DNA from: Promethearchaeota archaeon
GTDB taxonomy: Archaea > Asgardarchaeota > Lokiarchaeia > Sigyniarchaeales > SOKP01
NCBI GenBank assembly: GCA_016839765.1
Contig: JAEOTP010000028.1
Location: 1-37,298, forward strand
Direction: 5' to 3'
DNA length: 37,298 nucleotides
Made by a program: the position numbers and the translations under genes. Under the pieces are notes generated by a model that was not told where the DNA came from, did not search any database, and worked only from the letters and a program-made list of their open reading frames with translations. Of this stretch, positions 114-30,164 are shown piece after piece (position 1 is the stretch's first letter; every line of letters begins with the position of its first letter).

Positions 114-2756
114 TTGATATTAAAGATATTTATAATAGGTCCAGGTGGAATACCTTGTTATTCAAAGAATTTTTTTGAGCAAATTGATATTGAGGACAGT
201 ATTATTAGTGGATTTCTCACTGGAATTAGCCATTTCGCCAAAGAAATTAAAGGAGGAGAGATTAAGGCTCTAATCTTTAAAAATTTTAATTTTATATATT
301 CGTATTCGATTGAGTTTAATTGTATTTTTGTTATTGTTATAGATAAAGATGATTTAGAAGAAGACGCTAGATTGAAAGTTGAATTAATGAAAAGTGAATT
401 TGTTAAAAGATATCAACAATATTTAAAAAACTGGACAGGGAATGTTAGTGTCTTTGAAAGTTTTGATGACTTTATTGAGAAAAACATTTTTATTCCTCCT
501 AAAATAATATTAACTGGAGAAAATGGTGTAGGAAAAACCACTATCATGGATCTATTTCCTGGTGAAACAATTATAGAGTTAGATGATTATTCAAATGAAA
601 TTATCCAAAAGCCGATTGACTTTATTGATTTTGAAGAAATTAAACAGTGTATTATAAGAGAAATTGATTTAGAAGAATTAGTAAATAATACAAATAATTA
701 TAAAGATCTGTTAAATTCTGCAGATATCGTATTAATTGTAACAAATTCGGGAGCAAGTAATTTAGGGAGAACTCAAAAGCTAGCTTCCTTATTAAAACCT
801 AAAGTTCATAAATCAGATTTCTATATTATCGCAAACTTTCAAGATTTAAAAGACACTGCATTTGAGCCGGAAAAAATTGAAGAAATGTTTGATATAAAGA
901 CATTTGGCTTCTCTGCAAATAAAAAAGAATCTAAAAACCAAATAAGTTTTATTCTAAAGGAAATATTGCAGACTTCTATTTTACTTAAACAAGAAAAGAG
1001 ACATTTCATTGCCGAAGAAAAAGTAACTGCAATCAATGCTGAGGAAAAGGCAGGGATTGAGCAACCAGTAGAAAAATTTGAGGTAGACGTGGATTATGCT
1101 GATATTTGGAATCAAATAGAAGAAGCAAGAATGCTAGAAAAACAAGGAGAACATCTTGCATCTGCTGAAAAATTTTCTAGTGCGGCATCTCAGTTTAAAA
1201 ATCTGTGTTCAGATATAATAGATAATCAAGATAGAGAAGAATTAAATGCAATATATTATCTTTGCAAAGCATGGGAGTGTATGGAATTTGCTGAGGAATA
1301 TAATGATTCCAATAAGTTCACAGAAGCTGTGGAGCTATTTGATAAGGCTAGTGAGCACTTTGTTAATAATAAATCGAAGTTATTAGCCTTAGGAAATTCT
1401 GCTTTTTGCCAAGCTTTAGAACTAGGTTCTAAATTTGATAAGACAAGTGAAACATCAATTAAAGCAGAATATTACCCAAAAATTAAGATGATGCTCAGAA
1501 ATGCAGCTAATTTATATAGAAAAGGTGGATTTGAAAATGAAGCTGACTGGGCTTTAGCAACTTCAACTCATTTTGATGCAACGTGGCATATAATAAGAGC
1601 AGATGAAGAATTAAATCTTAATGAAAAGAAAGAACTATTAGAAATTGGTTCTGGCTTATTTAAATCTGCAGCACAATTATTTGGAAAAGCGGGATATAAA
1701 GATAAAGAAAAAGAAGTTTTAGATCGCTTAGACTTAGTAAAAAAAGAAGAAAAAATAATTGTATCAGCACTTAATACGATTAGAGAGCCGTTAATCTCCA
1801 AAGACACGCTGGATATTTTAACTCCTTCAATTCCCCAAAAAGATGAAGTTAAGAAAGTCAAAGAAAAAAGAACTAAAGAACAGAAATATAAATTAATCTA
1901 TAAGGATTTACTTAAAAAATACCCCAAAATTCAAAAAAGAGAATTTAGAGTCGGTGTTGCTCAAATAGGAGTGTCAAGTTCAGGAGATCTCATGAAAGAA
2001 TTTTATGAAGAAAAGGATTCTGGGTTATTAGGACTTCGGGAAGAAAAAGTTGAAATAATATTAGATAAAGTTAGAAATATGATTGAAAATGCTCATAATA
2101 ATGAAGTTAACATTCTCATATTTCCAGAAATATCCATAGATCTCAATTATGGTCACTTTTTAGAAGAAATATCAAATTTAGCAAAATCATTTGAGATGTT
2201 TATTATTCCTGGCTCATTTCACAATCTAGAAACGAAACAAAATATTAGTGTTGTAATTGGACCAGATGGAATTCTTTGGGAACAAGAAAAACATATTCCC
2301 GCAATTATACATTTTGGGGATAAAAAATTTGAAGAAGGAATAAAATTAGATGCATTTCCTAGACAAACTTTTGTTTGTAATACTGAGTTTGGGAGAATTG
2401 CCATAATAATATGCCGAGATTTTCTTGATATGGATTTACGTGTAGAATTAAAAAATTTCGAACCTCCAATAGACCTTATCTTCAACCCTGCATTCACTCC
2501 AGTTACAGAAGATTTCAAAGCAGCACATTTTGATGCCCGAAGATCAATTTATGCTTATTGTTTTTTTGTAAATATTGCTGAATTCGGTAATTCATTAATT
2601 TATACACCAGAAAAGGAACGAACCGAAAGAATTATCCCTCCAAAAGAAGAAAACCTAATTTACAAGGATATTGATCTGTTCAAACTTCGTTCAGAACGTA
2701 AGAAATGGGAAAAAGAAAAGAAAAAAAAGCGTCAATTTATCCAAAGTACACGATAA
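114..2756 (+). CDS. Longin-like / degenerate GTPase / TPR-SNAP-like / nitrilase fusion protein
   Basis: This 880-residue multidomain protein starts at TTG behind AGGAG. Residues 1-125 match the longin-like segment of the receptor-like protein at the right end of the window; both share an IP-x2-SK motif and a later NW-x-G motif. Residues 128-290 form a P-loop domain with GENGVGKT (135-142), NFQD (241-244) in place of NKxD, and SAN (267-269); no DxxG switch II is visible, so nucleotide hydrolysis is doubtful. Residues 330-545 are amphipathic helical repeats resembling TPR or SNAP proteins. Residues 610-835 are a carbon-nitrogen hydrolase (nitrilase) domain with a plausible Glu-Lys-Cys triad: E672 (FPE), K726 (EKH) and C767 (ICRD). 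The tail is Lys-rich. I infer a cytoplasmic amidase whose activity or location is set by the front modules. The substrate is unknown. Domain calls are firm for the nitrilase and P-loop, moderate for the longin. Confidence 0.85.
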   Translation: MILKIFIIGPGGIPCYSKNFFEQIDIEDSIISGFLTGISHFAKEIKGGEIKALIFKNFNFIYSYSIEFNCIFVIVIDKDDLEEDARLKVELMKSEFVKRYQQYLKNWTGNVSVFESFDDFIEKNIFIPPKIILTGENGVGKTTIMDLFPGETIIELDDYSNEIIQKPIDFIDFEEIKQCIIREIDLEELVNNTNNYKDLLNSADIVLIVTNSGASNLGRTQKLASLLKPKVHKSDFYIIANFQDLKDTAFEPEKIEEMFDIKTFGFSANKKESKNQISFILKEILQTSILLKQEKRHFIAEEKVTAINAEEKAGIEQPVEKFEVDVDYADIWNQIEEARMLEKQGEHLASAEKFSSAASQFKNLCSDIIDNQDREELNAIYYLCKAWECMEFAEEYNDSNKFTEAVELFDKASEHFVNNKSKLLALGNSAFCQALELGSKFDKTSETSIKAEYYPKIKMMLRNAANLYRKGGFENEADWALATSTHFDATWHIIRADEELNLNEKKELLEIGSGLFKSAAQLFGKAGYKDKEKEVLDRLDLVKKEEKIIVSALNTIREPLISKDTLDILTPSIPQKDEVKKVKEKRTKEQKYKLIYKDLLKKYPKIQKREFRVGVAQIGVSSSGDLMKEFYEEKDSGLLGLREEKVEIILDKVRNMIENAHNNEVNILIFPEISIDLNYGHFLEEISNLAKSFEMFIIPGSFHNLETKQNISVVIGPDGILWEQEKHIPAIIHFGDKKFEEGIKLDAFPRQTFVCNTEFGRIAIIICRDFLDMDLRVELKNFEPPIDLIFNPAFTPVTEDFKAAHFDARRSIYAYCFFVNIAEFGNSLIYTPEKERTERIIPPKEENLIYKDIDLFKLRSERKKWEKEKKKKRQFIQSTR

Positions 2757-2916
2757 TAAATTTAATGTTTATAATTTTGAAAAATCTAATGATTTTTAAA
2801 AAAAATGTCGCTTGACAAAGATTTCATATTTTCAGTTCTTACAAAAAAATTTAATATCATTGAAAAGGCAATATTGTAATAATAGATGATTAAATTGTAA
2901 TCGCTGGATAAATATA

Positions 2917-3177
2917 TTATAGTTGTCCTCCGACAACCCTTGCCCATAGTGATAATTTGTCATTTTCTTGAAGACCAAATTTATGTATTGCATCTTCAAT
3001 TGATATTGAATTGGGCAATTCTTTCTCATGAAGTACTAAAGTATATGAGCGTTGCTCTGCACTTATAATTCCCATATGCTTAATAACTATATCTATAATA
3101 CGTTCAATTAGATGATGTTCTTTAACATCTAACTTTATTAACTTACCGGTTCTCGTATCTTCAACGGATAATCTCAT
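2917..3177 (-). CDS. Ubiquitin-like beta-grasp protein with C-terminal GG-QL
   Basis: This 86-residue protein has the length and strand-helix-strand pattern of ubiquitin-like folds: a beta hairpin (1-18), a helix (22-35), strands around 45-50, and a 'GLQENDKLSL' turn near 68-77 like the end of ubiquitin. It ends VVGGQL, so a diglycine (83-84) is followed by two residues that a protease would have to remove before conjugation. In archaea that encode ubiquitin systems, a JAMM/Rpn11-type protease does this. No E1, E2 or JAMM gene lies in the window. The next upstream gene on the same strand, 126 bp away, is a membrane protein with a RING-like tail, suggesting a linked modifier/ligase pair. A non-conjugated YukD-like or Urm1-like role remains possible. 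Confidence 0.8.
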   Translation of the reverse strand: MRLSVEDTRTGKLIKLDVKEHHLIERIIDIVIKHMGIISAEQRSYTLVLHEKELPNSISIEDAIHKFGLQENDKLSLWARVVGGQL

Positions 3178-3303
3178 TAAAGTATCATTTTTTATTTTTT
3201 AATGGTTTTAACTTAAATAATAATGAAATAATTTTTAAATTTCATCTATTTGATGTTTCTGTAATATAATAATTATTTTGTAAATCCTCTAAGTAGATGT
3301 TGG

Positions 3304-4344
3304 TTAATCTTTAGTTTTTTCAGGTTTTTTAAAACTTGCTTCAACCTCCTCCATTTCAAACGGTTTAGAAGGCTTAGATTTATCAATTGGCTCATTACAA
3401 GCCCAACAAGCATTTTCCATGGTAGATAAAGTGCGAGCACAGTTTTCACAATATAGAGCATCACAACCAGTGCAAATATACGTATTAAATCCCCCAACTC
3501 CTCCTTTACACACTAAGCATATCTTTTGTTCCTTATAATAAGTAACTTCTTCTTCAGTAATTTGAGCAGGTCTTTTTCTTATTCTAAATAAAGAATCTTC
3601 AATTTTAATTTCTTCTTTAGGTTTTTCTTTTATATGTTTCTCAGGTTCTTCTCTTAATCCCAAATATACAAACAAAAAACTACTCATAGCTCCTATTCTA
3701 ACTAAAACTAAAACTATACTAAATGTAAAACTATCAAGCATCCCAAAAACAAGAACAAGAAAAACTGATACTGATAAATAGACAAATTTTTTTCTAATTA
3801 CACCTTCAGATTTAATTCCTTTGTATATATATACCAATTCTGAAAAACCTAGAAGTATGAGAAAATTGAGTAAACCTAAAAAACTTGAGATAGTTGCTGG
3901 ATTGAGCCCTGCTTTATGAATAAAACCAGTTAGTGGCGGTTCTATAAATATTACGACACCTAATGGATTTAAAATTGTTCCAACCATGGTAAAGCCAATA
4001 TAAGCTAAATACGGAATTAAAATATACCATTTCTTTTTAGCTGCAATAAACTCTGCAGCAATATAAAATAGAAAAATACTAGCAATAGGAGCTGATAACC
4101 ACATTAAATATACATATAGGACCTTATTTATACTAATGGATGTCAACAACACAGAAAAGAATTCAATCACAATTGCCAACCAAGCTGTAGCTACAAATAT
4201 TTGACTTAAACTATAAAGGGTAAGAAGTCTAATTTTTAATTTTCTTGATTTATAGAAGAAATAAATTCCTAAACTATACCCAAATATAAGAATTCCAAAT
4301 GTTGATATACCAATAAGCCAATCTTCAGCTGAAAAGTTTACCAT
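3304..4344 (-). CDS. Seven-helix membrane protein with C-terminal RING-like Cys8 zinc domain
   Basis: About seven hydrophobic segments (roughly 10-30, 42-66, 76-100, 106-130, 152-173, 187-204 and 207-230) are followed by a charged linker. A zinc-binding tail has eight cysteines at 276, 279, 291, 294, 299, 302, 313 and 316, that is four CxxC pairs. The order resembles a RING or related cross-brace finger in which cysteine replaces the usual histidine. A Lys/Glu-rich end follows. The seven-helix part resembles archaeal 7TM sensor-like proteins but I cannot name a family. The gene lies directly upstream of the ubiquitin-like gene on the same strand, so a membrane-bound E3-like role is an attractive inference. 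The tail could equally be a double zinc ribbon for other protein contacts. Confidence 0.75.
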   Translation of the reverse strand: MVNFSAEDWLIGISTFGILIFGYSLGIYFFYKSRKLKIRLLTLYSLSQIFVATAWLAIVIEFFSVLLTSISINKVLYVYLMWLSAPIASIFLFYIAAEFIAAKKKWYILIPYLAYIGFTMVGTILNPLGVVIFIEPPLTGFIHKAGLNPATISSFLGLLNFLILLGFSELVYIYKGIKSEGVIRKKFVYLSVSVFLVLVFGMLDSFTFSIVLVLVRIGAMSSFLFVYLGLREEPEKHIKEKPKEEIKIEDSLFRIRKRPAQITEEEVTYYKEQKICLVCKGGVGGFNTYICTGCDALYCENCARTLSTMENACWACNEPIDKSKPSKPFEMEEVEASFKKPEKTKD

Positions 4345-4530: not shown

Positions 4531-4761
4531 TTATTTTAAGTCTTTTAATCCAAACTTAAACTTTTCTGGATGCAAAAGATAATATCCCATTGTTTGCTTC
4601 CAATTTTTTATAGTTCTTTGCATTTGTACAGGGTCTTGATCAGTTTCTAAAGTAGTAAATAAATCTACTTCCTTTTTTACTCTCTCTTTTACTTCATCTA
4701 AAACTTTGTATTTAGGAAAATCTTTTAAAATAGGGGTTATTTTTTCTTCAATTACTACCAT
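4531..4761 (-). CDS. Small charged hypothetical protein, 76 aa
   Basis: This short soluble protein has no family I recognise. It has a predicted charged helix (about 18-40), a QDPVQMQ stretch and an aromatic-rich end. It starts at ATG and has codon use like its neighbours. It lies upstream of the 7TM/RING-like gene on the same strand with a 186 bp gap, so joint transcription is possible but not shown. Confidence 0.55.
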   Translation of the reverse strand: MVVIEEKITPILKDFPKYKVLDEVKERVKKEVDLFTTLETDQDPVQMQRTIKNWKQTMGYYLLHPEKFKFGLKDLK

Positions 4762-6529: not shown

Positions 6530-7594
6530 TTAATTATTCATCGAGGGAATTTTCTTTAATTCTATTAACTGTTTTGCGATATCATAAAATGCATTTTCGA
6601 CATTTTGTCCAGTTAAGGCAGAAATTTCAATATATTTAAGATTTAAGGCTTCTGCTAATTTTGTAGCCGTTGTATTTTTCACTTTTCTTTTAATTACTAA
6701 ATCAAGTTTATTTCCAAAAATAAATCCTACTATAGATATTTTATCACTAAGATGGCTTTTTATGTCTTTATACCAAGCTGAGATATTCTCAAAACTTTTT
6801 GGGTTAGTTAAATCATAAATCAAAATAATACCATTTATCCCTTGGTAAAAATGCTTTCTCATAGTTTGGAATTTACTCTGACCTGCTATATCCCATATAA
6901 TAAGTTCTACAAAGTCATTATCAACCTGAAAATTTTTATCGCTAATATTGGTTCCCATTGTAGGCACGTACACTCTACTAAAAGCGTTATCGGTAAATCT
7001 TAATATTGTTGATGTTTTTCCTACACCTGGATCTCCTACAACAGCTAATTTAAATTTATAGCTAGCTTCTATTCTTTCTTTTTCGATTGATTCTGGAAAT
7101 TCTTCTCCTGTAGTTAGGGATAGTTCTTTTTTTCTTAATTCTTCAATTAAATCAAGAACATTATTTCTTAATTGATTAATTTCTAAAAATATATCTTTAT
7201 CAATAGCGTCAGAGTTTTCTAATTCAATTATTTTTTTAGAAGTATTAGAAAATAAAGTTTCAAGATAGCTAATGTATTTATAAAAAATTACATCCTCAGC
7301 TTGTCTAAATAGAAAAGTAATTGCCGATCTAGCAGATTTTCCTCTTCTTTTATCGTCTTTTCTTTCTATATATTTTACAATTCCTTTCAGTTTAATAGAT
7401 GGAAATGGAAAAATGATTAAAGAATCAGGTGTGTATCCATAGCTACCAGAAAGTAGCGTAACAGCTTTAATACTTACTAACATATTTACATTTTCAGGAA
7501 GATCAGAAGGATAGCAATAAACTGGATTAGGACCAAGTTCATCATGTAGATCCGTATAAATTATTGCATGAATTAACTCTTTACGTGACATCAC
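6530..7594 (-). CDS. Longin-like domain plus Ras-like small GTPase (copy 1)
   Basis: Residues 1-125 are a longin-like domain with the motifs LGPNP-x5-P (20-29) and FPFPSIKLKG (62-71), shared with three other GTPases in this window. A helical linker leads to a complete Ras-superfamily G domain (180-345): G1 GDPGVGKT (187-194), G2 Thr212, G3 DIAGQ (235-239), G4 NKLD (295-298) and G5 SAL (325-327). All catalytic and guanine-recognition residues are present, including the switch II Gln, so GTP hydrolysis is likely. The C-terminus (SMNN) lacks a prenylation cysteine, so any membrane recruitment would need the N-terminal domain or a partner. The first codon is GTG, with ATG next; the ATG at 7591 is the more likely start. 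Confidence 0.9.
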   Translation of the reverse strand: MMSRKELIHAIIYTDLHDELGPNPVYCYPSDLPENVNMLVSIKAVTLLSGSYGYTPDSLIIFPFPSIKLKGIVKYIERKDDKRRGKSARSAITFLFRQAEDVIFYKYISYLETLFSNTSKKIIELENSDAIDKDIFLEINQLRNNVLDLIEELRKKELSLTTGEEFPESIEKERIEASYKFKLAVVGDPGVGKTSTILRFTDNAFSRVYVPTMGTNISDKNFQVDNDFVELIIWDIAGQSKFQTMRKHFYQGINGIILIYDLTNPKSFENISAWYKDIKSHLSDKISIVGFIFGNKLDLVIKRKVKNTTATKLAEALNLKYIEISALTGQNVENAFYDIAKQLIELKKIPSMNN

Positions 7595-10834: not shown

Positions 10835-11869
10835 TTATTTAAATGTATTATAAAGTTTATTCGCTAAATCATTAAAAGCAGAATCAACGTTTTCACCCGT
10901 TAATGCGCTCGTTTCTATATAGCTGAGATCCTGAGTATTTGCTAATTCAATTGCTTTTTCGGCACTTATTTGTAATTCTTCAGTTAAATCCTTCTTATTT
11001 CCTACAATAAATCCAACTAAATCTGGACGATTTTTTAATTGATTCTTTACATCCAAATACCAATTAGATAAATTTTTAAAAGATTTTTCATTAGTTAAGT
11101 CAAAAACTAAAAGGATGGCATCAGATCCAAGATAAAACTGTTGCCTCATCGTTTCAAATTTAATTTGTCCCGCAATATCCCATAAAACTAATTGAACTGT
11201 TGACCCCTCGACCTTAAAAATCTTATCTGATACGTGGACGCCAAGAGTTGGAATGTAACTTCTTCTAAATGCATTATTAGTATATCTTAAAATTAGAGAG
11301 GTCTTTCCAACTCCAGGATCTCCTACAATAGCTATTTTAAATTTATAATCAACGAGACCAGCCTCTTTTACTTTTTGCTCAGGAAATTCTTTCGCCTGGA
11401 CTTTTTCTTTATTCTTTAATTCTTCTAATAGATTTGATAAATTTAATTCAAATTCTTCTAATGACTCGGAAAAAGTTTCTTTAGGAGCTTTTTTTTTTTC
11501 TAGGTTGATTATTTTTTGCGTAATTTCACCAAATGGAGGAGTAAGCTGATTCATATATTTATAGAAAATAACATCATCTATTTCCCGAAATAATAAGGCT
11601 ATGGCAGATTGACCTATGCCACCTCGTCTATTTGGATCATCCCACTTAATATATTTAATCAATCCTTTCAAGTTTAATGTTGGAAATGGGAGAACTACCA
11701 ATGATTGGGGTACAAGACCCTGCTCACCTGAAAGAACCGCGATGACTTTGATTACAATATGCATTACGTCATTTGGTGAATAATTTGTAGGAAGCCATAC
11801 TAGAGGATTTGGGCCGAGTTCATCATCAAGTTGCGCGTACAAAAGTACTGTAATAACTTCTTCTGTCAT
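10835..11869 (-). CDS. Longin-like domain plus Ras-like small GTPase (copy 2)
   Basis: This is a paralogue of the gene at 6530-7594 with the same architecture. The N-terminal longin-like domain has LGPNP-x4-LP (18-27) and LPFPTLNLKG (60-69). The Ras-like domain at 175-344 has G1 GDPGVGKT (183-190), G2 Thr208, G3 DIAGQ (231-235), G4 NKKD (291-294) and G5 SAL (321-323). All motifs are intact, so it should bind and hydrolyse GTP. The two copies diverge mainly in the linker (about 125-172). The protein ends YNTFK, with no lipidation cysteine. The MFS gene converges on it from the other strand, and the UPF0147 gene diverges from it. Confidence 0.9.
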   Translation of the reverse strand: MTEEVITVLLYAQLDDELGPNPLVWLPTNYSPNDVMHIVIKVIAVLSGEQGLVPQSLVVLPFPTLNLKGLIKYIKWDDPNRRGGIGQSAIALLFREIDDVIFYKYMNQLTPPFGEITQKIINLEKKKAPKETFSESLEEFELNLSNLLEELKNKEKVQAKEFPEQKVKEAGLVDYKFKIAIVGDPGVGKTSLILRYTNNAFRRSYIPTLGVHVSDKIFKVEGSTVQLVLWDIAGQIKFETMRQQFYLGSDAILLVFDLTNEKSFKNLSNWYLDVKNQLKNRPDLVGFIVGNKKDLTEELQISAEKAIELANTQDLSYIETSALTGENVDSAFNDLANKLYNTFK

Positions 11870-19106: not shown

Positions 19107-20009
19107 ATGTTAGATTACAAACAAGAACAAAAGATTATAGAAATTGATAAGGTAAAAATTGGCGGCCAACCAGGAGAAAATTCAACAGTTATGATTGGTA
19201 CGGTTTTTTATGCTAAGCATTCTGCTTTATTAGATGAAAAGACTGGAAAAATAGACAAGGACCTTGTTGAGAAAGAATTGAATGAGTTTTCTGAAATAAT
19301 TGAAGATACTGGAATGCAAGGAATTATTGACGTTGTTGGAGCTTATTCAGAGGCTCTTATTAAAGAATGTGAGTTTGTTTCAGAAATTGTTGAATATCCT
19401 TTTCTGGTTGATGGGTTAAACGATGGTTCACGCATTCCAGCCATGGAAGGCTTGAAAGAGATTGGATTATTAGATAGAGCAATTTTAAACAGCATTGATG
19501 AAAATACTACTGAAGAAAGTTTAAATAAATTAAAAGAGATTGGAGTCAAAAATGCCGTGCTCTTAACTTTTGGCTCAAAATATATCTTTCCAAAACAGAA
19601 AATTGAATTTTTAAGGAATAAACTTATTCCTAAAGCTGAAAAAGCAGAGATAAAAAATTTCTTAGTGGATACTGCCGTTTTAGATTTACCTTCTATTGGG
19701 ATTAACGTTGAAACTACGCGACTAGTAAAAAGTGAACTTGGGTTACCAACTGGTTTTGCTCCTGCAAATGCAATTTATGGATGGAAATATGGTAAAAAGT
19801 TTGGAGAAACATCGAGATGTGGAGCAATTGCATCTATAATGTCTTATTGTGTAAATGGTGGAAGTGATTTTGTTTTGTTTGGTCCTATTAAATTTGCCAA
19901 ATGTATTGTGCCAGCGATTTCATTAATTTCAGGAATAAATTCCTATTATAGAAAAAGAATTTTAAGGAAGTCTATATCCGAGAAGACACCTTTAAAAAAG
20001 ATTTTTTAG
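19107..20009 (+). CDS. MtrH-family tetrahydropterin methyltransferase
   Basis: A 300-residue TIM-barrel protein of the MtrH family, shown by IDKVKIGGQPGENSTVMIGT near 14-33, a central VDGLNDGSR, and APANAIYGWK near 219-228. In methanogens MtrH moves a methyl group between tetrahydromethanopterin and the corrinoid of MtrA. Isolated MtrH-like proteins in other archaea are thought to pair with corrinoid proteins fed by methyltransferases for methylated compounds. None of MtrA-G, MttB or a corrinoid protein is in the window, so methanogenesis is not implied. The stop codon at 20007-20009 abuts and, within the ORF limits, overlaps by 4 bp the end of the convergent GTPase gene. Confidence 0.88.
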   Translation: MLDYKQEQKIIEIDKVKIGGQPGENSTVMIGTVFYAKHSALLDEKTGKIDKDLVEKELNEFSEIIEDTGMQGIIDVVGAYSEALIKECEFVSEIVEYPFLVDGLNDGSRIPAMEGLKEIGLLDRAILNSIDENTTEESLNKLKEIGVKNAVLLTFGSKYIFPKQKIEFLRNKLIPKAEKAEIKNFLVDTAVLDLPSIGINVETTRLVKSELGLPTGFAPANAIYGWKYGKKFGETSRCGAIASIMSYCVNGGSDFVLFGPIKFAKCIVPAISLISGINSYYRKRILRKSISEKTPLKKIF

Positions 20010-21505
20010 GCAATATATCTAATTAATAAATCTTTTGTGCGATTTAAGAAATTTGGTAAATTATTATTTATTTTATCTTTTTTAATTTCATCATCTAAAA
20101 GAAATAAGAGATACATTTCATACCTATAGACATTTATTTTTTTAAAGAGAATGGTGGAGTCAGCAACTTTAAATATAGCCTCACCTTCTTTTATGGCTTT
20201 ATATTTAGAAAAGATTTTGAATAAGATGGCAAACTGAGGTGCTGTTATTTCAAATACGTTTAATAATTCCTCTGTTTTAGGTATATTTGTTAAAGATACA
20301 GCTTCAGGTGTATAATAATCTGCCAGCACTAAACCATCACTGTTTAACATTAAAGTTAAATAAGTACCAGTTTCTCTTGAAAAATTCTCTAAATTATGAC
20401 CTATTAATTCCTTATTAGGACTTAGTTTTGAGATTCCAGAGGAGAAAGCTCTTAAAATTGAAAAGAGACGAAATATACTAGTTATATAAATTTCTGGTTT
20501 ATTATTCGAATCTATAATAATTAATTTTTCCTTAATTATTTTTAAATTATCATTTAGTTCTTTAGATTCAATAATATCAGGGTCTCCCTTCGATAAAATA
20601 TATATAATTGGAGTATCTTGCTTAAAACTTTTTAATACTTTAGTTATATTTTGAAGATATTCAAAGCTCTCTTCAAATCTATTTCTATTTCTAATATCAA
20701 TAAAATAAAATATTAAATCTGCTTCATACAAATAAATTTGAGCTCTTTTAAGATATTTTTCTCTGAGACTTAACTGACCTCCTAAATCCCATAAAAAAAT
20801 TGTTGTGCCAAGTGTTTCAATAGAACTCACTTGGGCTCCAAATGTTGGTTTCAATCCCATTAATTTAGAAAATTTTCTATCTACTGATAATAAATATGAG
20901 GTTTTACCCGAATCATCTAAACCTGCAAATATAATTTTCATTTTTCTCTGGGTTGTAATAGGCGTTGTAGGAGTTTCCTCAATCTTAAGAACTTTTTCTA
21001 AGAAATCTTTTAAGTGGTGCTCTATTTCATCTTGTGATTTAAAATTATCTATAATTTCTTTATCAAAAACTTGAAATAAATCCAAAATAATGTTTTTTAA
21101 CCTATTAATGTTATTATACAAAAAGCTCCTCTTATTCTCATCCACAAATAGAGAAAAAGATGTCGCTAAAGGCTCTTGGCTAAATTTTACATCTATAAAA
21201 TGAAAAAATGTCAGTGAAGTTAAATTGAAATCTGGAAATGGGATTATACCAAAATACTGAAATTTTTCAACATCCACTCTATTAAGTATAGTACTATCAC
21301 CGATTAATAAACTCAAATTTTTTATCGAAATTTGAGTATAATCTCTTAAATTTAAATCGAGAATTTCCTCATGCATAGTATCTTTTGTTTCAGATTTGTT
21401 TTGCTCACTAGGTTTTGGGAACATGTATATCGGCTCAGGACCTAATTTATCATATGCGCTGAATAGAATTCCTCTAACAATTGATGATTTAAGTATTTCT
21501 TCCAT
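20006..21505 (-). CDS. Longin-like / Arf-Rag-like GTPase / roadblock-like protein (copy 1)
   Basis: Three parts are visible in 499 residues. The N-terminal longin-like domain (1-150) has LGPEPIYMFP (21-30) and IIPFPDFNL (87-95). The central Arf/Rag-like G domain (188-360) has G1 GLDDSGKT (195-202), G2 Thr221, G3 WDLGGQ (239-244) and a Rag-like G5 TSIF (342-345). G4 reads SKGD (305-308) where NKxD or HKxD is expected, so guanine recognition may be altered. The C-terminal part (about 365-499) has a roadblock-like pattern, LMLNSDGLVLADYY, as in the other two Rag-like proteins here. It has the same build as 28746-30164. No lipidation cysteine is present at the end (RYIA). Confidence 0.88.
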   Translation of the reverse strand: MEEILKSSIVRGILFSAYDKLGPEPIYMFPKPSEQNKSETKDTMHEEILDLNLRDYTQISIKNLSLLIGDSTILNRVDVEKFQYFGIIPFPDFNLTSLTFFHFIDVKFSQEPLATSFSLFVDENKRSFLYNNINRLKNIILDLFQVFDKEIIDNFKSQDEIEHHLKDFLEKVLKIEETPTTPITTQRKMKIIFAGLDDSGKTSYLLSVDRKFSKLMGLKPTFGAQVSSIETLGTTIFLWDLGGQLSLREKYLKRAQIYLYEADLIFYFIDIRNRNRFEESFEYLQNITKVLKSFKQDTPIIYILSKGDPDIIESKELNDNLKIIKEKLIIIDSNNKPEIYITSIFRLFSILRAFSSGISKLSPNKELIGHNLENFSRETGTYLTLMLNSDGLVLADYYTPEAVSLTNIPKTEELLNVFEITAPQFAILFKIFSKYKAIKEGEAIFKVADSTILFKKINVYRYEMYLLFLLDDEIKKDKINNNLPNFLNRTKDLLIRYIA

Positions 21506-28745: not shown

Positions 28746-30164
28746 ATGAGTGGTATAGAAAAACAGATCATAAAATCAGTAATTTTAAGTTTATTTGATG
28801 AAGATGGACCTACACCTAAAATATACTGGCCCCAAGATATAGAAGAATCTGCTCGCTTATTGATTGCAATGAAAACAATCAGTCTTTTAATGGGGGATGC
28901 GGTATATCAAAATGGAACTGAGATTGATGGAGTTAACTATTTTGGTATATTACCTTTTCCTGATTTAAAAATGAATGGATTAACCTATTTTTTTTTAATA
29001 TCTGATCCAAAAGCACGCGGAAATGCAACAGCAGCAACCATTACAGTTTTAATTGATGAGAATAACAGGGTTTTTTTTTATGAAAATATGAAATATCTTA
29101 GAATGATTATAGATAAAGCAGCTTCAAGAGTTCAAACTTCAAAAAGTTTCGATGAGAATAAACAAATTATGGAAGATTTAAGACAAGAATTATTTGAATT
29201 TACTAATGAATTAAAAGATCCATTATCAATAAAACGACAATTAAAAATACTTTTTGTTGGACTGGATAGAGCTGGTAAAACAAGCTTTTTACATGGTGTT
29301 AAGAAGCGGTATTCTGAAATTATAAAAATTCTCCCTACTAAGGGTGTTGTTAGAACAGAAGAAAAATTATTTGAAGAGCAAAACTCTCAAATATCAATCT
29401 GGGATTTGGGTGGACAGCAAAAATATCGAGAAAAATTTCTTGAACAGGGTAAAATATATCTTTATAATGTAGATCTATTATTTTATTTTATTGATATACA
29501 AGATTCAAAAAGAATTAAAGAAGTTATTGATTTATTTAAAAAAATCTTAAACTCATTAAAGGAATTAGATGAATTTCCACCAATAGTGATATGTGTAAAT
29601 AAATTTGACCCAGATTTGAAAAAATCTAAAGAGATTAGGAAGAATTTAAAAATCCTTGAAGAAGAAATAATAAAGTGTTCAAGCGATTTCTTTTTTAAAA
29701 TATTTCATACTTCTGTCTTTGATCACTGGTCTTTAATTTCAGCTTATTCTTATGGGCTCTCACAACTTAGCCCCAATCGTGAATTATTTGAAAATCAATT
29801 AAAATTCTTGGCTAATAAGACAAAATCAGATGCATTATTATTACTAAATGACAACGGAATTATTTTATCAAACTACTCAAACGAGAAATCAAAAATTTCT
29901 GAAAAGGTTTTTGAAATATCCGCACCTCACTTCCAAACTCTCTATAAAACATTTAAAGAATTTAAATTGCTAAAACAAGACTTTATTGTATCTTCAGGAA
30001 TAACAGATGAAGAGAGAAAGATCATTTTTAAAAAAATTGATATAGATAAACATAATTTATATTTACTTCTTTTTATGGAGAAATTTGAAGGAATCGAAAA
30101 GATAGAAAAGCAATTACCAAAATTTACTAAAAATGTAAAAGAATTAATCCAAACTTATATCTAA
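28746..30164 (+). CDS. Longin-like / Arf-Rag-like GTPase / roadblock-like protein (copy 2)
   Basis: A paralogue of 20006-21505 on the other strand, 472 residues. The N-terminal longin-like domain has EDGPTPKIYWP (19-29) and ILPFPDLKMNG (68-78). The G domain has G1 GLDRAGKT (172-179), G2 Thr198, G3 WDLGGQ (219-224), a normal G4 NKFD (285-288) and Rag-like G5 TSVFD (322-326). The roadblock-like C-terminal half (about 345-472) has LLLNDNGIILSNYS. All nucleotide-binding motifs are present, unlike copy 1, where G4 is altered. The pair could form a heterodimer as Rag proteins do; this is inference. The longin-winged-helix gene follows 119 bp downstream. Confidence 0.9.
   Translation: MSGIEKQIIKSVILSLFDEDGPTPKIYWPQDIEESARLLIAMKTISLLMGDAVYQNGTEIDGVNYFGILPFPDLKMNGLTYFFLISDPKARGNATAATITVLIDENNRVFFYENMKYLRMIIDKAASRVQTSKSFDENKQIMEDLRQELFEFTNELKDPLSIKRQLKILFVGLDRAGKTSFLHGVKKRYSEIIKILPTKGVVRTEEKLFEEQNSQISIWDLGGQQKYREKFLEQGKIYLYNVDLLFYFIDIQDSKRIKEVIDLFKKILNSLKELDEFPPIVICVNKFDPDLKKSKEIRKNLKILEEEIIKCSSDFFFKIFHTSVFDHWSLISAYSYGLSQLSPNRELFENQLKFLANKTKSDALLLLNDNGIILSNYSNEKSKISEKVFEISAPHFQTLYKTFKEFKLLKQDFIVSSGITDEERKIIFKKIDIDKHNLYLLLFMEKFEGIEKIEKQLPKFTKNVKELIQTYI

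Follow-up and report, generated by a model that had tools for sequence, protein, structure and literature searches.

A ubiquitin-like modifier gene and a candidate membrane RING ligase gene as the probable remainder of a larger ubiquitylation cluster in an Asgard archaeon

Two neighboring genes, encoding a ubiquitin-like modifier and a seven-transmembrane (7TM) protein with a RING-like tail, are probably what is left of a complete ubiquitylation cluster, the membrane protein belonging to a set of RING E3 candidates that would be served in trans by an E1-E2 cascade. The window (the whole stretch of DNA analyzed, 37,298 nucleotides) is contig C95 of an Asgard genome from the Lokiarchaeia, 3.32 Mb in size and 96% complete. 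Both ORFs lie on its minus strand, with the 7TM-RING gene 126 bp upstream of the modifier gene, an adjacency first noticed in a sequence-only reading of this DNA and borne out by the ORFs themselves. The relevant features are these:

114 to 2756, plus strand: protein of 880 aa with a P-loop region and a C-terminal nitrilase (C-N hydrolase) domain (Pfam; blastn)
2805 to 2879, plus strand: deletion scar, in which the start of a JAMM gene is joined in frame to C-terminal codons of an E1 gene and then a stop (blastn, shuffles, alignment)
2917 to 3177, minus strand: ubiquitin-like modifier of 86 aa, ending ...VVGGQL (ORF)
2920 to 2931, minus strand: Gly-Gly (2926-2931) and putatively removable Gln-Leu (2920-2925) (sequence; relatives' alignment)
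3304 to 4344, minus strand: membrane RING protein of 346 aa, with a 7TM domain and a C-terminal RING-like tail (ORF; 19-homolog alignment; AlphaFold2)
3361 to 3573, minus strand: RING-like tail, residues 258-328, with eight Cys (tail profile; PDB and Pfam matches)
3655 to 4329, minus strand: seven predicted transmembrane helices, residues 6-230 (AlphaFold2 secondary structure; hydropathy; helix-end charge)
4531 to 4761, minus strand: conserved small protein of 76 aa, also found beside RING/ubiquitin genes in loci L009, L013 and L020

Compared with the orthologs in genomes G122 and G123, dN/dS is 0.05-0.16 for the modifier, 0.07 for the RING part and 0.23 for the 7TM part, and by their coding sequences both genes look real and under selection; these ratios span time before the deletion, so that a recent relaxation is possible. 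Elsewhere, the window encodes four GTPases of Ras/Rag/Arf-like type whose N-termini carry long extensions (6530-7594, 10835-11869, 20006-21505 and 28746-30164).

No Pfam family reached its cut-off for the modifier in a Pfam scan, which argues that its sequence has diverged. From 20 natural homologs AlphaFold2 predicted a confident beta-grasp (pLDDT 86.8) with the order beta-beta-alpha-beta-beta-alpha-beta and disorder past the Gly-Gly, and the best Foldseek matches in the PDB were ubiquitin, SUMO and NEDD8 (E about 4e-7 to 3e-6; TM-scores normalized to the target mostly 0.77-0.84). Ubiquitin chains also ranked first in a profile search of PDB sequences, although tandem repeats of ubiquitin inflate the top E-values there and the scores of single domains are weak. 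An affiliation with Urm1 or YukD was rejected, YukD reaching only 0.014 in Pfam and the fold search pointing to ubiquitin, SUMO and NEDD8; the ubiquitin-like fold proposed at first sight stands as a prediction. The proposed Gly-Gly end fares equally well: it is invariant in all 22 aligned sequences (the window copy, paralogs and relatives), followed in the relatives' alignment by 0-4 variable residues (none, S, F, Y, L, QL, IR, YSY or YYKQ), and the mature modifier is predicted to end at Gly84, with QL as a two-residue extension. Model and alignment support a beta-grasp protein of ubiquitin type in which the Gly-Gly never varies, and which is by analogy a candidate for conjugation to proteins. 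Three such paralogs occur in the genome, namely the window copy, one on contig C33 (85% identical to it, ending GG-YSY) and one on C76 (71% identical, ending at GG); the C-terminal remnant that the window (C95) copy would leave on a conjugated lysine after tryptic digestion reads VVGG, and that of the other two VIGG.

A search for E1, E2 and JAMM genes elsewhere in the genome had been suggested from the outset, and all three are indeed present on C33, together with the second ubiquitin and a broken RING gene. For the enzymes encoded at C33 and in relatives' loci, Pfam assigns the E2 to UQ_con (1.8e-11), the E1 to ThiF (1.7e-47) and the JAMM protein to JAB (1.1e-13), and invariant motifs are HPN and Cys112 in the E2, the nucleotide motif SNLNRC and SCT (Cys203) in the E1, and E35, H105xH107P and S115xxD118 in the JAMM protein; Cys112 and Cys203 we take to be catalytic. 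No cognate E2 besides the C33 copy was found in this genome. In 14 loci of relatives the ubiquitin gene converges on intact genes for E2, E1 and JAMM, and as a rule between one and three genes for membrane RING proteins lie close by; L004, L008, L013, L016, L017 and L020 are among the loci in which all five components stand together.

The partner protein has seven membrane helices by both AlphaFold2 and hydropathy, and its basic residues cluster at the TM1-2, TM3-4 and TM5-6 joints, which argues for an N-out, C-in topology with a cytosolic RING. Its nearest 7TM-RING ortholog, in G123, is 79% identical. Foldseek returned no significant match for the membrane domain (E >= 3.6e-3), and a GPCR-like fold was dropped on this account. 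Stand-alone 7TM paralogs that carry no RING tail occur at G000:C40:17832-18515 and G000:C75:58928-59611 (L036 and L037), and imply that the membrane part also serves as a separate module.

The tail itself carries its cysteines in the order C276-x2-C279-x11-C291-x2-C294-x4-C299-x2-C302-x10-C313-x2-C316. Across 19 homologs seven of the eight are invariant, as are Y298, N311, W314 and D321, with C299 replaced by His in one protein. These eight metal ligands have the order and spacing of a RING, of C4C4 type with natural C2-to-His and C5-to-His variants; the C4-x4-C5 spacing exceeds that of canonical C3HC4 RINGs and equals that of the p44 C4C4 RING. Searched against the PDB, a profile built from 13 tails found the RNF4 RING best (1.7e-4), the C1 domain of PKC delta (2.5e-4), the C4C4 RING of TFIIH p44 (4.9e-4, all eight Cys aligned) and next PHD fingers, the RING scores being modest; Pfam zf-C3HC4_3 matched the tail of the L013 ortholog at 1.8e-4, under the family cut-off. 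In the AlphaFold2 model (RING-region pLDDT blocks of 68-82) the tail follows a beta-beta-helix order, with a helix at 300-309 that separates the third Cys pair from the fourth, a treble-clef or RING-like feature that is ill-suited to a second zinc ribbon. The initial description of four CxxC pairs in RING-like order is upheld by the best scores falling to RING domains and by the alignment of the p44 domain over its whole length, while the model does not bear out two ordinary zinc ribbons. A double zinc ribbon was rejected on scores as well (DZR E 0.5-1.4, poorer than RING models). Cysteine pattern and model may fit a zinc cross-brace, with C1 and PHD domains matching comparably; the tail is a candidate for binding an E2 and acting as a ligase.

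E2-binding RINGs typically have a hydrophobic residue before C2, a Pro after C7 and an Arg, the linchpin, after C8. In the 19-homolog alignment the tail has V or I before C2, as in such RINGs, together with Trp for the usual Pro after C7 and no Arg after C8, so that two of three canonical E2 contacts are absent. Canonical E2s, for their part, carry a WSPAL motif and a Phe in loop 4; the cognate E2 reads WSRLSD where WSPAL is expected and has a Gly near the usual loop-4 Phe. Here lies the main doubt: either the RING-E2 interface has been rebuilt on both sides, or the tail has another role.

A first scan, of one genome per GTDB species, recovered 21 loci with relatives of the modifier, almost all in records labeled Lokiarchaeota or Lokiarchaeia. 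One locus, L022 (WJJB01000194.1), bears a Bathyarchaeota label and a ubiquitin near-identical to that of Sigynarchaeum, and is probably a mislabeled bin. The modifier's ubiquitin was found in 29 of 228 Asgard genomes, all of them in families f1 and f4 except for one weak match. When a strong match is set at E <= 1e-10, RING tails occur in 23 of the 25 ubiquitin-bearing genomes of Lokiarchaeia (f1) versus 8 of the 40 others (Fisher p=1.3e-8, with shared ancestry uncorrected), and, among genomes at least 90% complete, in 17/19 with ubiquitin versus 4/25 without it (p 1.6e-6, phylogeny uncorrected). The two exceptions are G139, whose ubiquitin has two stops, and G127, whose ubiquitin is cut by a contig end; eight Lokiarchaeia genomes have a strong RING tail without the modifier's ubiquitin, one of which (G133) is rated 100% complete. 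The cognate E2 is present in 22 of the 25 ubiquitin-bearing f1 genomes versus none of the 40 others, again with phylogeny uncorrected. The adjacency of modifier and RING gene is itself recurrent in relatives: at 24 inspected ubiquitin loci, several of them shortened by contig ends, a RING-tail gene lies within 1.3 kb upstream on the same strand in 12 (two being remnants), within 2.7 kb on the other side in four more, and 3.6 kb upstream in one.

Many ubiquitin-bearing genomes hold from five to at least 25 copies of the tail (14 in G109, 21 in G126, 23 in G159, and at least 25 in G100 and G161), on hosts of several kinds: proteins with 7TM (about 350 aa), 8-9TM (about 400 aa) or 11-13TM (about 490 aa) by a simple hydropathy scan, soluble TPR proteins of about 500 aa, and proteins of 600-2800 aa in which an extended N-terminal part is followed by a single hydrophobic segment and then by the RING at the C-terminus. 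Most of these giant proteins belong to family f4 and G100; in those that were scanned, the domains present are of NosD/right-handed beta-helix, Ig-like or carboxypeptidase-regulatory-like type. Judged by sequence comparison, the RING tails form a modular family that has expanded and is linked to the modifier's ubiquitin system. Six members (L133, L134, L138, L139, L140 and L142), of about 1000-2700 aa, end in a TM segment and a RING, some with NosD/right-handed beta-helix or Ig-like domains, and resemble receptors of the cell surface whose RING faces the cytosol.

Repeated siting beside ubiquitin genes and co-occurrence with the E2 weigh, together with the V or I before C2, against the strongest competing explanation, which we consider unlikely though far from negligible: that the tail, as a zinc module of RING-like or C1-like type, brings in ubiquitin, an E2 or other proteins but has no ligase function, and that the membrane proteins serve as receptors or scaffolds, either being ubiquitylated themselves or reading the mark. 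It draws its strength from C1 and PHD domains scoring near RINGs, from the missing linchpin Arg and post-C7 Pro and the non-canonical RING-contact loops of the E2, and from the precedent of the p44 C4C4 RING, whose role in TFIIH is mainly one of protein-protein contact.

The history of the locus gives no support to the proposal that a modifier and a membrane ligase form a distinct arrangement here. The window is collinear with L009 (G122) and L013 (G123) over the nitrilase protein, ubiquitin, 7TM-RING (a remnant in L009) and 76-aa protein genes; unlike both, it has no JAMM, E1 or E2 gene between the nitrilase and ubiquitin genes. The 160-bp gap between these two holds an in-frame MSLDKDFIFSVLTKKFNIIEKAIL-stop (2805-2879). 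Its first part, MSLDKDFIF (about 2805-2836), aligns to the JAMM N-terminus (MSIEEDFVFPV in L009) into the start codon, and its second, LTKKFNIIEK (about 2837-2867), has a counterpart, LTNKFNIIEK, in the 3' region of the E1 gene in L009, with 29 of 31 bases matching (blastn E 3e-7, a score attained in 0 of 1000 shuffles). Scar and synteny together argue that E1, E2 and JAMM genes were deleted from the window locus, and, with the enzymes at C33, the restriction to modifier and candidate ligase is, on this genomic evidence, a local loss from a full JAMM-E1-E2/ubiquitin/RING cluster. The five-component clustering of archaeal systems is accordingly absent from the window, where ubiquitin and RING genes are accompanied only by the JAMM/E1 scar.

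The synteny is fixed by the 880-aa nitrilase gene, which flanks the JAMM side and is 82.8% identical to L009 and 77.7% to L013 by blastn. This P-loop/nitrilase protein is found on the JAMM side repeatedly (window 114-2756; L009:8442-11084; L013:8358-10964; L020:7573-10221), and a functional link with the ubiquitin cluster is possible. Also on that side are short ORFs of 49-56 aa with a common PPNDKI motif (L032:5251-5400, L008:9553-9714, L009:11215-11385, L005:10410-10559). The ubiquitin locus is nearer to genus g8 (ubiquitin 91%, 7TM-RING 77-79%), identities that hint at a possible lateral transfer. A mis-binned contig was ruled out by the window's single-copy PPDK, which is 94% identical to that of G138, of the same genus, and about 74% to that of G123, of genus g8. 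Ubiquitin or RING copies with internal stops (G139:C22:56513-56794, G137:C90:4893-5090, G000:C33:163041-163274, G122:C1:2222485-2222679) suggest repeated loss of the ubiquitin system within Lokiarchaeia.

It might be asked whether the window pair is itself decaying, a second ubiquitin and a RING protein left with no role once E1, E2 and JAMM had gone. The deletion scar and the redundancy of this ubiquitin with the one at C33, where all enzymes reside, would fit, and the broken RING at C33 indicates that decay does happen in this genome. Both window genes are nevertheless intact and constrained relative to the G122 and G123 orthologs, and the RING lost at C33 has been kept in the window, which looks like a division of parts; we rate decay as less probable than the non-ligase module and improbable overall. 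The idea that one modifier and one membrane ligase suffice as a minimal system has in its favor only the isolation of these two genes in the window; it is scarcely credible and is refuted for this locus by the scar, the synteny with complete clusters, and the E1, E2 and JAMM genes in trans.

Under the preferred reading, a leftover pair supplied in trans, ubiquitin would be made as a precursor and cut after the Gly-Gly by the C33 JAMM protein, by analogy with CsRpn11; the C33 E1 would activate the trimmed form and pass it to the C33 E2; and the cytosolic RING of the 7TM protein would dock this E2 and aid transfer to lysines on proteins that lie at the membrane or within it. Membrane proteins would thus be the presumed substrates. 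As the same tail occurs on multi-TM, soluble and single-pass ectodomain proteins, the choice of substrate or signal would lie in the attached domains, and the two ESCRT-III (Snf7) genes of this genome make sorting of ubiquitylated membrane proteins possible. A broader proposal, to which we give slightly less than even weight, is that in Lokiarchaeia and Sigynarchaeia one ubiquitin-E1-E2-JAMM core serves an expanded set of RING E3s, reaching at least 25 per genome, as modular membrane signaling. If true, this would parallel, in prokaryotes, the diversification that transmembrane E3 ligases underwent in eukaryotes; beside multi-TM and soluble members there would be receptor-like ones, in which one TM segment joins a predicted ectodomain, for example a beta-helix, to a cytosolic RING. 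Lokiarchaeia are related to the ancestor of eukaryotes. A RING family of this size, mostly membrane-bound and tied to one ubiquitin core by position and co-occurrence, would mean that E3s diversified and membrane proteins were ubiquitylated before eukaryotes or in parallel to them, and the proposed archaeal ubiquitin-ESCRT link would become testable with defined proteins.

Several known systems invite comparison. The C4C4 RING of TFIIH p44/Ssl1 (PDB 1z60) resembles the tail in that their alignment runs the full length of the domain and takes in all eight Cys; p44, unlike the window's RING protein, is a transcription and repair factor subunit with no membrane domain. Eukaryotic transmembrane RING E3s (HRD1/synoviolin, PA-TM-RING, MARCH) join a membrane domain or ectodomain to a cytosolic RING. 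The window protein is predicted to share this plan, and the synoviolin RING is among the weak profile matches; it differs from them in a membrane domain of no detectable homology and in a C4C4 tail with Trp after C7. Among Asgard archaea, ubiquitin clusters and RING proteins have already been reported (PMC6043591, PMC9192718), and Lokiarchaeota are described as having a discrete ubiquitin gene region (PMC9192718, PMC10936438); the ubiquitin-ESCRT gene sets so described resemble the present genome in that discrete region and in its accompanying Snf7 genes. The membrane RING family, its expansion and the split cluster do not appear in the passages searched of PMC9192718 and PMC10936438, supplements aside, and the wider literature searched, supplements and subscription papers aside, mentions neither membrane RING proteins nor an expansion of them nor split clusters. 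The archaeal ubiquitin system reconstituted so far has one small RING E3, and E3 diversification has been treated as eukaryotic (PMC5654768). That system, the ubiquitylation operon of Caldiarchaeum subterraneum, comprises ubiquitin, E1, E2, the small RING-H2 protein srfp and an Rpn11/JAMM homolog; CsRpn11 trims the CsUb precursor after the Gly-Gly, and the RING protein stimulates its E2 (PMC5654768, PMC6043591). The clusters described here are alike in the Gly-Gly with a short removable tail, the ThiF-type E1, the UBC-fold E2, the Rpn11-like JAMM protein and a RING candidate, all encoded together. They differ in that the single small RING-H2 E3 of C. subterraneum is replaced by a C4C4-type RING borne in many copies on multi-TM or large proteins, and in that the window locus, unlike the operon, has lost its enzymes.
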